From Marinicella marina (GTDB lineage: Bacteria; Pseudomonadota; Gammaproteobacteria; Xanthomonadales; Marinicellaceae): a DNA stretch of 64,000 bases. Location: positions 62,001 through 126,000 of the forward strand of contig NZ_JASJNC010000001.1 in NCBI RefSeq assembly GCF_030065545.1. Reading direction: 5' to 3'. The position numbers and the translations under genes were made by a program. The notes below the pieces were generated by a model. It was not told the DNA's origin, did not search any database, and worked only from the letters and a program-made list of their open reading frames with translations. Positions 5,716 to 28,678 of the stretch are shown one piece after another. Each line of letters opens with the position of its first letter. The stretch's first letter is position 1.

Positions 5716-5807
5716 CGCAACTCTGACTAACGACTACCTGTGTTCACACAAACCATAAGCCGATTGATTTAAAATATTCATGAGTCAAATGAATTCATAC
5801 CACCACC

Positions 5808-6014
5808 ATGCAACATCAAAGTAATCCAGTTCATCCACAAAACATCGGCGGCATTCATAAAAAAGGCATCGGCATGGGCGAGGAGGCCATGATCAGAATC
5901 ACCGCTGGCTTATGCGCACATCCAGAATCGTGGCAGAAATCACCACAAGAAATAGTCGCCCGAGCCCAAGCCATTCACGATGAATTATTCAGGTACAAAG
6001 GGGTCGACGCATAA
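5808..6014 (+). CDS. Small protein of unknown function (68 aa)
   Basis: A 68-residue frame with protein-like composition: a Gly/Lys-rich N-terminal half (I-G-G-I-H-K-K-G-I-G-M-G-E-E-A) followed by a likely amphipathic helix ending in D-E-L-F-R-Y-K-G-V-D-A. It has no signal peptide or membrane segment. No strong ribosome-binding site is visible before the ATG. I do not recognise the family. It is listed because the frame sits cleanly between genes and nothing on the other strand competes with it. Confidence 0.5.
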   Translation: MQHQSNPVHPQNIGGIHKKGIGMGEEAMIRITAGLCAHPESWQKSPQEIVARAQAIHDELFRYKGVDA

Positions 6015-6267
6015 CAAGACAGGCAAATCAGTGATTTTATCATCGGTTTATTGGACCTCTTTATGGTCTTGAATGGTTGGGTGATATCACTGAACTGTGT
6101 ATGAGTTTGTGATGGGCAGGGCCCAATCTACTTAAATACGGTCATTCTCGAGCTGACCCAATTCACTATTGTGGTGACTATAAAATCCATTGATTTAATT
6201 GTTTTGGTATAGGTTTAGAGAATAGAATGATTACTACTAATTGCATCATTCAACAGGGACATACAAA
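6015..6267. other. Non-coding gap with an 8-bp inverted repeat
   Basis: About 250 bp without a supported gene. TCAGTGAT (6029-6036) and ATCACTGA (6086-6093) form an 8-bp inverted repeat 49 nt apart; there is no T run behind it, so it is not a standard terminator. The remainder is AT-rich and presumably holds the promoter of the exported trypsin-like gene, but I see no clear -35/-10 pair. Confidence 0.4.
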
Positions 6268-25339: not shown

Positions 25340-26131
25340 ATGATGGATTTAAACCTGAAAGGCAAGACCGCTGTGGTTTGTGGCTCAACCCAAGGCATGG
25401 GCTTAGCGATTGCACAACAGTTGGCACAACAAGGCGCGGCAGTGGTGATGGTGGCTCGCAACCAAGAAAAATTGACCGAAGTGGTCAAGACTTTGAGTAC
25501 TGAAGACCAGCAGAACCATCATACTTTGGTGGCTGACTTCAGCGACCCAGCACAAGTCAAGTCAGCCATTGAGGCGCATCTGGCCAAACATCCAGAAGCA
25601 AACATTTTAATCAATAACACCGGTGGACCACCGCCTGGTCTTGCCAAGGATGCCGACCCAGCAGCTTTTCAGTTGGCTTTCAACCAACATTTGATTTGTA
25701 ACCAGGTGTTGGCGCAGGCTTTGGGACCCGCCATGCAACAAGCCAAATACGGGCGCATCATCAATGTCATATCCACCTCAGTCAAACAACCTTTGCCCAA
25801 TTTAGGTGTTTCTAACACCATCCGTGGTGCGGTCGCCAATTGGGCCAAAACCTTGGCCAATGAATTGGGACAGTACAACATCACCGTTAATAACGTCTTG
25901 CCGGGCGCCACCGAGACCGGTCGATTGTCGAGCATTTTTGAAAATAAAGCCAAAAAAACTGGCTTAACCGTTGATCAAGTGATTGAAAATGAAAAAGCCA
26001 TCATACCGATGCGTCGATTCGGCACGCCACAAGAATTTGCCAATGTGGTGGGCTTTTTATCATCGCCCGCAGGGGCTTACATCAATGGTGTCAACATTCC
26101 AGTCGATGGTGGACGCACCGCATGCCTGTAA
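25340..26131 (+). CDS. Short-chain dehydrogenase-like protein lacking the catalytic Tyr and Lys
   Basis: Rossmann-fold SDR of 263 residues. It has the cofactor motif G-S-T-Q-G-M-G (residues 15-21), the N-N-T-G-G motif and the active-site serine region S-T-S (145-147). Where classical members carry Y-x-x-x-K, this protein reads S158-N-T-I-R162, so both the proton-donor tyrosine and the lysine are replaced. This marks the atypical 3-oxoacyl-ACP-reductase-like subgroup, whose chemistry is unclear. The C-terminal G-V-N-I-P-V-D-G-G is intact. The ATGs at 25340 and 25343 are equally possible. It overlaps the aldehyde dehydrogenase gene by 10 bp. Confidence 0.85.
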   Translation: MMDLNLKGKTAVVCGSTQGMGLAIAQQLAQQGAAVVMVARNQEKLTEVVKTLSTEDQQNHHTLVADFSDPAQVKSAIEAHLAKHPEANILINNTGGPPPGLAKDADPAAFQLAFNQHLICNQVLAQALGPAMQQAKYGRIINVISTSVKQPLPNLGVSNTIRGAVANWAKTLANELGQYNITVNNVLPGATETGRLSSIFENKAKKTGLTVDQVIENEKAIIPMRRFGTPQEFANVVGFLSSPAGAYINGVNIPVDGGRTACL

Positions 26132-27585
26132 CGGCTGAAAACCTTACCATTAAAAACCTCATCAATGGTGAGCTGCTGGAGCCTGTCAATGGTCAGCACA
26201 TTGACAACATCGAACCAGCCACCGGCCAGGTTTATGGCCTGATTCCCGGTTCAGATAAGGATGACCTCGATCTGGCAATCAAAGCCGCTGAGAAAGCGTT
26301 CAGCATTTGGTCTAACACGCCGGCAGAGATAAAAGCCAAAACACTGAATAAACTGGCAGATTTGATTGAAGAAAACCAAGATCAATTAGCCAGAACAGAG
26401 GCCATTGATAACGGCAAACCAATCACTTTGGCTAAAAATGTCGACATTTACCGCGCTGCTGCAAATATCCGTTTCTTCGCCCAAGCGGCCACACAATTCA
26501 GCAGTGAATCTCACGCCATGGAAGATGTCGCCATCAATTACACCTTACGCGATCCTCTGGGTGTTGTGGCATGTATTTCCCCATGGAATTTACCGCTGTA
26601 TTTATTCACATGGAAAATTGCCCCTGCTTTGGCCACCGGCAACTGTGTCATAGCCAAACCCTCAGAGGTGACGCCGATGACTGCCTACTTGTTTTCTGAA
26701 TTGTGCATTGAAGCGGGTTTGCCTGCTGGTGTTTTGAATGTCTTACACGGCACAGGACAGGTCATTGGAGATGCCATAGTTAAACACCCCAGAATCAAAG
26801 CAGTCAGCTTCACCGGTGGCTCAAATACCGGCACAACCATCAAACAAGCCACCGCCCAGCAGCACAAAAAATTGTCTTTAGAGTTAGGCGGTAAAAACCC
26901 CACTTTGGTTTTTGCTGATTGTGACTTTGAACGAACTGTTGATGAGGTGGCACGTGCTGCTTTTGCCAATCAAGGGCAAATTTGTTTATGCGGCTCGCGC
27001 ATTTACATTGAGCACAGTATTTATGATCAATTCACAGCCGCTTTGGTGGCAAAGGTCAAACAACTGGTGATTGGCGATCCTTTGGATGAGCGCACACAAT
27101 TTGGCGCACTGGTATCCAAAGCACACATGGAAAAAGTTTTAAGTTATATTGAACTGGCTCAAACTGAAGGCGGTGAGGTACTCACAGGAGGCAAGCAAAT
27201 TAACCTCGAAGGTCGATGTGCCGAAGGGTATTTTATTCAACCGACCATCATTGCAGGGCTTAAAAACCAATGCCGCACCAATCAAGAAGAAATTTTTGGG
27301 CCTGTTTGTAGTGTACAAAGTTTCTCCTCAGATGAGCAAGCATTGCAATTGGCCAACGACTCAGATTACGGTTTGGCTGCCAGTATATGGAGCCAAGACA
27401 TCAGCCGCTGTCATCGTATGGCCAAACAATTGAACACCGGCATTGTCTGGGTCAATTGCTGGCTGTTGCGTGATTTACGCACGCCTTTTGGTGGCATGAA
27501 AGCCTCAGGCTCCGGACGTGAAGGTGGCTTGGAAGCGTTGCGCTTTTTCACTGAGCCCAAAAATGTTTGTATCAAATACACCTGA
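26122..27585 (+). CDS. NAD-dependent aldehyde dehydrogenase, ALDH8 / aminomuconate-semialdehyde type
   Basis: A 487-residue aldehyde dehydrogenase with general base E254 (L-E-L-G-G-K-N-P) and nucleophile C288 in N-Q-G-Q-I-C-L-C-G-S-R. The C-L-C-G-S-R context resembles ALDH8A1 and bacterial 2-aminomuconic or 2-hydroxymuconic semialdehyde dehydrogenases, enzymes of tryptophan/kynurenine or aromatic meta-cleavage breakdown. No ring-cleavage or kynurenine gene is in the window, so the substrate is inferred from sequence style only. Overlap with the SDR gene implies co-translation. No terminator is evident immediately after it. Confidence 0.9.
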   Translation: MPVTAENLTIKNLINGELLEPVNGQHIDNIEPATGQVYGLIPGSDKDDLDLAIKAAEKAFSIWSNTPAEIKAKTLNKLADLIEENQDQLARTEAIDNGKPITLAKNVDIYRAAANIRFFAQAATQFSSESHAMEDVAINYTLRDPLGVVACISPWNLPLYLFTWKIAPALATGNCVIAKPSEVTPMTAYLFSELCIEAGLPAGVLNVLHGTGQVIGDAIVKHPRIKAVSFTGGSNTGTTIKQATAQQHKKLSLELGGKNPTLVFADCDFERTVDEVARAAFANQGQICLCGSRIYIEHSIYDQFTAALVAKVKQLVIGDPLDERTQFGALVSKAHMEKVLSYIELAQTEGGEVLTGGKQINLEGRCAEGYFIQPTIIAGLKNQCRTNQEEIFGPVCSVQSFSSDEQALQLANDSDYGLAASIWSQDISRCHRMAKQLNTGIVWVNCWLLRDLRTPFGGMKASGSGREGGLEALRFFTEPKNVCIKYT

Positions 27586-27810
27586 CTCTGTCACCACTGA
27601 TCAAAATCACCAATCAATTTGATTACTTATTTTTCTCAAACAGCGCTTTGTCATTCAACAAGCCATCAACAAATGGATTAATTTTGTAATCATTTCGTTA
27701 ATTCATGGTCTTATTAATAAGTTCGTTGAAAACATCAGGACTTTTGGCACATTAATTGGCCTGGTGATATGACTAATATAATAATACGTACTGAAACAAC
27801 AACAAAGTTA

Positions 27811-27839
27811 TTGACGTACGTAAGACTTAGTAGTATAGT
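27811..27839 (+). promoter_or_regulatory. Sigma-70 promoter of candidate small RNA
   Basis: TTGACG (27811-27816) and TATAGT (27834-27839) are separated by exactly 17 bp, close to the full -35/-10 consensus. A start near 27846 would follow. TACGTAC (27785-27791) and GTACGTA (27816-27822) form an inverted repeat that reaches into the -35 box and may be an operator. No protein-coding frame begins within the next 300 bp. Confidence 0.75.
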
Positions 27840-27845
27840 GATTGC

Positions 27846-28007
27846 ATGAAACAGACATATGTAAAGCAATTTCCATATGGATGTAGCAAGCTTGGAGTTA
27901 CAGAAATTCCTCCCCTAACGCTTTTTAACTCTCTGATTTCTGTAACTCCACCCTTTTAAGAATCAAGGGAAGGTGGCCTTGTGGACCAAGGCTCACATGC
28001 TTTTTTT
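27846..28007 (+). ncRNA. Candidate small regulatory RNA (about 160 nt)
   Basis: Between the promoter and a seven-T run lie three hairpins. The main one is a perfect 15-bp stem (27893-27907 with 27936-27950) holding a 28-nt loop that begins TCCTCCCC, a sequence complementary to Shine-Dalgarno sites. A smaller CCCTT/AAGGG hairpin spans 27951-27969. The terminator stem GTG-GCCTTG / CAAGGC-t-CAC (27973-27996) precedes ATGC and T7. GCATG near the 5' end (27844-27848) can pair with CATGC (27996-28000). I do not recognise 6S, tmRNA, SRP or RNase P RNA. The architecture is that of a trans-acting sRNA; expression is unproven. Confidence 0.65.
27973..28007 (+). terminator. Rho-independent terminator of candidate small RNA
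   Basis: A 9-bp stem with one bulged T (27973-27981 with 27987-27996), loop TGGAC, followed by ATGC and seven T (28001-28007). Confidence 0.8.
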
Positions 28008-28177
28008 GACTAACAAATTCAATGTCTTGGGTTATCAACGATTTATAACTTGAGGCTCCTCTTTTTTATATTTCCACTCTCAATAAAATCATTTATAACC
28101 GTCCTTGCGCTTTTTATTATAAACCGAAAACGGCATAATACCTCAAACAGTTTTTTAACTTTTTTTTCACACCACCC

Positions 28178-28678
28178 ATGTTGCATAACTCTGAAGAAAT
28201 TCGTACACAATTAAAAGAAGTAACCGATGCTGCCCACTGGGCAGGCGATCTGTTTGAAAAGTCCTTTGGTGCCAAAGTACCAGATTTCCCCAAACACTTT
28301 GTCTTGGTCGCTGAAGCGCCCAACGACGAAACACTGATATTGGGCTATGTCCACTTCACACAGCATGAGAACGTGTATTTGGGTGGCGGTATGTGTGTCA
28401 ACAAACAAGCCTTGAGGCAACTACCCAAAAACCTCAGGTCAGCATTGAACCAACAAGGCGGTGTGGCTTACACCATGCTCAGTGAGGCAGTGAAACAACT
28501 TAATGACTGCGATGCTGTGTTTGGTTATGTCGGCCACAAAGGTGCGTACAGAATTGATTTGGCTGTGGGCTTTGAACCAACAGTCCACAAACACCTGATT
28601 GTGTACTGGAAAAAACCGATGAATGAATTGGAACAGAAGCAGATCATACAAAAAGCCCATGCCTATGGACCTTTTTAG
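28178..28678 (+). CDS. Unrecognised protein, possibly GNAT-like fold (166 aa)
   Basis: A 166-residue soluble protein. The order of strands and helices (F-V-L-V-A-E-A, L-I-L-G-Y-V-H-F, Y-L-G-G-G-M-C-V-N, A-V-F-G-Y-V-G-H-K-G-A-Y-R-I-D-L-A-V-G-F-E) resembles an acetyltransferase fold, with Y-R-I-D-L-A-V-G-F-E in the place of the usual acceptor segment. No clear acetyl-CoA loop is seen, so the assignment is tentative. The gene sits 51 bp before glutathione reductase on the same strand. Confidence 0.65.
   Translation: MLHNSEEIRTQLKEVTDAAHWAGDLFEKSFGAKVPDFPKHFVLVAEAPNDETLILGYVHFTQHENVYLGGGMCVNKQALRQLPKNLRSALNQQGGVAYTMLSEAVKQLNDCDAVFGYVGHKGAYRIDLAVGFEPTVHKHLIVYWKKPMNELEQKQIIQKAHAYGPF

Follow-up and report, generated by a model that had tools for sequence, protein, structure and literature searches.

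A conserved, single-copy RNA gene that is apparently undescribed, flanked by an aldehyde dehydrogenase gene and a gene of 166 codons, is very probably present in the 64-kb stretch of Marinicella marina DNA analysed here, which is referred to as the window. Promoter included, it occupies about positions 27811 to 28007 of the plus strand, and it has a conserved promoter, a conserved structure, a conserved syntenic position and no conserved reading frame. The first-pass annotation of the window had proposed at this place a candidate small regulatory RNA with an anti-Shine-Dalgarno loop; promoter, stem and C-rich loop were found to be conserved and no Rfam family fits, whereas what points to an anti-Shine-Dalgarno role is the sequence of the loop. 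In the favoured interpretation the gene would be transcribed independently into an RNA of about 160 nt, which would act in trans and lower the translation of several mRNAs by means of its C-rich loop; this mechanism, taken in full, has about an even chance of being correct.

Distribution and genomic setting

In a DNA search of 101 genomes, strong matches (E of at most 1.4e-15) were obtained in 12 genomes, all of them Marinicella, and the best match outside the genus had an E value of 0.005. The main hairpin of the RNA (P1, see below), with a loop opening with TCCTCCCC, was found at the same syntenic place in 12 of the 18 genus genomes, and a covariance model of the hairpin, run against 299 genomes of the order, recovered the same 12 of 18. 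The rest of the 299 genomes gave nothing convincing with this model, the two matches having E values of 0.39 and 0.54; the search used strict filters, which missed the weaker hairpins of four genus members (G001, G002, G008 and G011) found with the filters off, and it may have missed weak relatives elsewhere. A pattern scan for the loop core in 84,980 species genomes, which was confined to contigs of 3,000 bases or more and from which records close to that of the window may be missing, returned 11 records, namely ten from Marinicella, with the cultured M. litoralis KMM 3900, M. sediminis F2 and M. meishanensis NBU2979 among them, and one from the Flavobacteriia (L043). The latter was rejected as a chance match, the stem being absent there. 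Judged from these searches, the RNA gene appears to be confined to most of the genus Marinicella. No small-RNA study of Marinicella was among the matches listed in literature searches.

The gene is situated in a gene-free gap of 592 nt (27586-28177) which is, as the first-pass annotation had claimed, the largest in the window when open reading frames of at least 75 codons are counted; the second-largest gap (5716-6240) comprises 525 nt. Its upstream neighbour is the aldehyde dehydrogenase gene (26122-27585, plus strand; Pfam Aldedh), which precedes the RNA in 11 of the 12 loci, the contig of the remaining locus (L016) beginning too late. The downstream neighbour is the 166-codon gene (28178-28678, plus strand), which has no Pfam match and follows the RNA at each of the 12 loci; no counterpart of it was found in G005, G011 and G015, of which G005 is 89% and G015 81% complete. 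One copy of the RNA locus is present in the window's genome, and the covariance model of the hairpin detected one locus per genome besides matches to its own antisense strand, so that a multi-copy element or mobile repeat was rejected.

P1, with a length of 55-60 nt, is nearly identical in all 12 homologues and thus almost invariant when compared with the adjoining coding DNA, which is only 70-77% identical: at the nucleotide level, the aldehyde dehydrogenase genes of the relatives measured (10 of 11) match that of the window to 69.8-76.7%. Even the most diverged homologue (L019, from G010) has kept the hairpin and the loop core.

Additional conserved blocks are located 3′ of the RNA. Those at 28020-28034 (CAATGTCTTGGGTTA) and 28052-28078 (GAGGCTCCTCTT...TTTCC) are conserved in most syntenic loci and possibly belong to the regulatory region of the 166-codon gene; TTCAATGTC, which is part of the former, is also present in genus members without the conserved RNA. 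A third conserved block (28092-28121, AACCGTCCTTGCGCTTTTTATTATA) includes the promoter-like sequence TTTATA-17-TATTAT, possibly a candidate promoter of the 166-codon gene.

Promoter and upstream element

A near-consensus sigma-70 promoter with a 17-bp spacer, as named in the first-pass annotation, is located at 27811-27839 on the plus strand (TTGACG-17-TATAGT) and is conserved in the relatives together with its spacer (GACGTACGT ... TTAGTAG). By consensus alone it is unexceptional, since three promoter-like sites were counted in 27300-28500 versus 2.7 expected in shuffles. The 29-nt promoter block (TTGACGTACGTAAGACTTAGTAGTATAGT) is identical in seven of the 12 loci and present as a variant in four, hence recognisable in 11; it was not found in L019. 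The spacer is no less conserved than the hexamers, which suggests a site for a regulator. A regulon sharing the promoter motif was rejected, since no second copy was found in the window's genome, neither of the 23-nt promoter core with up to three mismatches nor of the spaced promoter motif with up to two.

A further possible regulator site is the element GGACTTTTGGCACAT (27738-27752, plus strand), about 60 nt 5′ of the -35 box. It is located 104-184 nt 5′ of P1 in 11 of the 12 syntenic loci, several of which differ in it by one to a few bases; the contig of L016 starts too late to show it. In the window's genome, one exact site (the one at 27738-27752) and two sites with one mismatch were found, compared to one site for the reversed control. 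Both a promoter of its own and an intergenic location, which are used to recognise trans-acting sRNAs, can be assigned to the candidate gene from the promoter block, recognisable at 11 of the 12 loci, and from the position in the largest gap.

Secondary structure of the putative RNA

Based on the position of the promoter, the fold and the conservation, the transcript would extend from about 27846 to 28007 on the plus strand, corresponding to about 160 nt. The 164-nt strand folds more stably than all 200 of 200 shuffled sequences (z of -4.09), and the RNA is predicted to fold into four hairpins, designated P0, P1, P2 and P3. The perfect 15-bp hairpin, the second small hairpin and the terminator with seven T, all of them listed in the first-pass annotation, are present as P1, P2 and P3, respectively.

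P1 (27893-27950, plus strand) has a 15-bp stem formed by 27893-27907 with 27936-27950, which would present a single-stranded loop (TCCTCCCCTAACGCTTTTTAACTCTCTG) of 28 nt in the window and 27-32 nt in the relatives. In the 14-bp core of the stem, 168 of 168 pair cells across the 12 homologues are standard, including four G-U cells; ten pairs never vary, three vary on one side (G-U) and one shows a double change, in L019. The covariation of P1 alone is weak and is reached by 38 of 500 shuffles because the stem hardly varies; the structural support comes from the flanks, in which P0, P2 and P3 change in sequence and mostly keep their pairs. The first-pass annotation had named compensating changes in the stem together with a conserved C-rich loop in related genomes as support, and stem pairing and loop are indeed conserved in the relatives, promoter included, the P1 core contributing the one double change.

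The leader hairpin P0 (27847-27888, plus strand) is fast-evolving: its sequence and length vary freely, and the hairpin is retained in most relatives. Among the ten foldable leaders, without L017 (leader too short) and L019 (no promoter), z was below -2 in seven and between -0.8 and -1.9 in three. The small hairpin P2 (27951-27969, plus strand) and the terminator-like hairpin P3 (27973-28007, plus strand) were compared by means of hand-chosen arms in ten of the 12 homologues, L017 and L019 having been dropped since no P2 or P3 was drawn for them. The P2 arms, CCCTT/AAGGG in the window, are CCCTC/GAGGG in L010, L011 and L013 and CACCTC/GAGGTG in L012 and L014; P2 is weak in L015, L016 and L018. 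P3 comprises a GC-rich hairpin (27973-27996, GTG-GCCTTG/CAAGGC-CAC) followed by seven T (28001-28007), and nine to ten of the ten homologues are paired at each position of the hand-chosen arms, with double changes at some. In the window species, P3 and its T run would end the RNA; the terminator is evident by eye there and absent from the list of a simple terminator scan. At least six T near the end of P3 are found in four of the ten homologues with P3 (L001, L010, L015 and L018), and in the others the T run is shorter, interrupted or absent. Due to the weak U-run in several relatives, the 3′-end is uncertain. The first-pass annotation had also paired the two ends of the RNA (GCATG/CATGC). Both words are indeed present in the window, but only there, and the pairing is not conserved; four out of the five pairs would be possible in L010.

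Coding potential and known RNA families

The statement of the first-pass annotation that no frame begins here did not hold literally, since an ATG frame of 37 codons starts at 27846 and extends to 27959, although this frame is broken by 1-nt indels in the relatives. That it encodes a small protein is extremely improbable: the length of P1 varies from 55 to 60 nt with 1-nt indels, which exclude a conserved peptide, the leader is unalignable and no frame is kept. The locus thus shows a conserved secondary structure without a conserved reading frame, two features by which trans-acting sRNAs are recognised. In agreement with the earlier view that no known housekeeping RNA matches, an Rfam search of the whole window returned no family at gathering score at all. 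A relaxed search (E of at most 10) of 27590-28177 gave six weak matches, five of them to the opposite strand and the sixth to an animal microRNA model.

Relation to the neighbouring genes

In four members of the genus that do not carry the conserved RNA (G001, G002, G008 and G011; loci L050, L051, L052 and L117), a hairpin of at least 12 pairs with a short loop immediately follows the dehydrogenase stop codon. Its bases vary and mostly remain paired, with two mismatches in L051, and its tail is ACCTCTTTTT or a near variant. The U-run at these four loci begins about 5-6 nt past the stem, which is unusual for an intrinsic terminator. With the filters off, the covariance model R1 scored 21.8-35.5 bits on the sense strand of the four genomes and 22.4-33.1 bits on the antisense strand, as expected because the stem is self-complementary. 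The similarity to P1 in sequence is modest: 2, 10, 62 and 173 of 1000 shuffles were as good, and among four control regions there was one with a value of 27 of 1000. These hairpins may be reduced or ancestral forms of the RNA, or unrelated terminators. In a dehydrogenase tree of 18 rows, from which L015 and L016 were left out for lack of sequence, the family outgroup is placed beside L017 and L019 with moderate support (94/90) and on a long branch. A birth of the RNA from a terminator was considered, and the tree does not favour the simple hairpin as ancestor.

The location of the four hairpins, with their ACCTCTTTTT-like tails, directly behind the dehydrogenase stop codon would fit a P1 that serves the aldehyde dehydrogenase operon mainly as terminator or 3′-UTR hairpin, whether or not an RNA is released from it. 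Such a function is improbable in view of the distance of P1 from the stop codon, which is 307 bp in the window and 157 to 951 bp where measured, and of the conserved promoter that intervenes in 11 of the 12 homologues. Moreover, a terminator would not need the conserved loop, the four hairpins are only modestly similar to P1 and score on the antisense strand too, and a greater age of the simple form is not evident from the dehydrogenase tree.

On the other side, the constant location of the RNA 5′ of the 166-codon gene would also be expected of a cis-acting leader, that is, an attenuator or riboswitch of this gene. P1 ends 67 nt before the start of the gene in L017 and 37 nt before the first matched codon in L019, which is also without the promoter block, and at these two loci the hairpin could lie within the leader of the downstream gene. 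Because of these distances the cis-acting leader was rated slightly higher than otherwise, and it is still an unlikely explanation of the locus as such: in the other ten loci, P1 and the gene are separated by 224-284 nt, in the window the terminator-like hairpin with its seven T and the promoter-like block at 28092-28121 intervene, and no alternative anti-terminator pairing was noticed, without a systematic search.

Candidate targets and proposed role of the loop

The loop of P1 contains UCCUCCCC, the complement of the Shine-Dalgarno sequence, and an hfq gene is present in the window's genome. An anti-Shine-Dalgarno function is plausible. According to the mechanism of a trans-acting sRNA considered here, the sigma-70-type promoter, probably bound by a regulator as well in view of its conserved spacer, would start the RNA at about 27846, and the C-rich part of the loop (UCCUCCCCUA) would most likely pair with G-rich stretches at or near the ribosome-binding sites of several mRNAs. 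This pairing would lower the translation of these mRNAs, perhaps with Hfq.

Target sites were searched in the form of long exact or near-exact seeds; pairing may also rely on shorter ones. When one mismatch is tolerated, the 13-nt complement GCGTTRGGGGRGG still finds no site but the RNA locus itself in the window's genome. Across the 12 genomes it gave 36 rows, of which 25 are non-self, and none of the 19 non-self rows examined is in a Shine-Dalgarno position before an open reading frame of at least 70 codons. Two of the GCGTTRGGGGRGG sites (L103 and L107) are located just inside a gene which presumably resembles ftsZ. The sequence TAGGGGAG followed by ATG within 1-13 nt was found 28 times in the 12 genomes versus 38 times in the reversed control and is thus not enriched, and the only such site in the window's own genome falls within a reading frame. 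Six of the 28 sites, all in other species (L122, L127, L128, L133, L135 and L137), precede a frame of at least 100 codons that is not open far upstream and could be ribosome-binding sites. When proteins of at least 30 residues were compared for all 28 rows, no gene common to different species was found. For the 3′ half of the loop, the complement has 13 non-self sites (of 25 rows) versus 17 in the control, and no similar pair was detected among the surroundings of all 13.

Several aspects speak against the trans-acting sRNA. The whole P1 loop is conserved far beyond CCUCC, and simple blocking of Shine-Dalgarno sequences does not need a loop conserved beyond the anti-Shine-Dalgarno word. The C-rich word itself is changed in L013 and L019, and the extended complements revealed no target common to the species. 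The weak U-run in several relatives and the weak covariation of the P1 stem count against it as well. A less likely alternative is a structured RNA which would bind a protein or the ribosome as a decoy or for titration, with the whole of P1 as recognition site instead of an antisense seed. It is in keeping with such binding that P1, in contrast to P0, P2 and P3, is locked in its loop and in both arms, and that extended complementary targets common to the species were not found; but a loop of about 28 nt with small length changes is long for a protein site, no partner is known, and the target search covered only long exact and near-exact seeds. There is a lesser, though real, chance that the entire locked hairpin of 55-60 nt is recognised by a protein or the ribosome, or that it switches between a hairpin and an open form, which would make the stem arms pairing sequence too, instead of acting by plain anti-Shine-Dalgarno antisense pairing.

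Comparison with known small RNAs

Xanthomonas belongs to the same bacterial order as Marinicella, and its small RNA sX13 is represented by a model in Rfam; no sX13 match was among the Rfam hits in 27590-28177 up to an E value of 10. As described in passages of PMC3771888, the C-rich (CCCC) apical loops of sX13 repress mRNAs that carry G-rich motifs close to the start codon, and sX13 consists of three stems with 4C/5C loops and adjoins polA. The Marinicella RNA shares with it the C-rich loop and the bacterial order, but it is dominated by a single hairpin, the loop of which measures about 28 nt and is the only C-rich one, and it is located between the aldehyde dehydrogenase gene and the 166-codon gene, not beside polA. 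PmaR of Agrobacterium is characterised in parts of PMC6234868 as spoon-like, with one long stem and a single-stranded loop with C-rich target-engaging regions; according to these parts it acts on its targets mostly as an activator, the majority of the predicted sites lying elsewhere than at ribosome-binding sites. The long stem and the single-stranded loop with a C-rich part are common to both RNAs, which differ in lineage. In NfeR1 and the alpha-r14 RNAs, conserved anti-Shine-Dalgarno words (CCUCCUCCC) are found in the loops, as stated in sections of PMC10746234 and PMC3927594, and NfeR1 blocks the start of ntrB translation (PMC10746234). Alpha-r14 combines a constant short word in the loops with variable stems, and there are three hairpins, or three or four in the RNAs covered by the respective sections of PMC3927594. 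By contrast, the Marinicella RNA keeps the stem and the whole loop of one hairpin constant, and in place of three hairpins each with a CCUCCUCCC loop it has a single one with UCCUCCCC.

Because the loop complements the Shine-Dalgarno sequence, hfq is present, and sX13, PmaR and NfeR1 are established sRNAs with C-rich loops, a regulator acting in trans is favoured. By analogy, the Marinicella RNA is probably an sRNA that is restricted to the genus and acts in trans in the manner of sX13, PmaR or NfeR1, and it constitutes a new family by sequence and a familiar kind by design. An apparently undescribed, well-supported RNA gene is thereby added to the genus Marinicella. With one hairpin locked and the flanks evolving fast while remaining paired, its pattern shows where to mutate first; should the RNA bind G-rich sites, sX13 would have a counterpart with a single loop in its own order.
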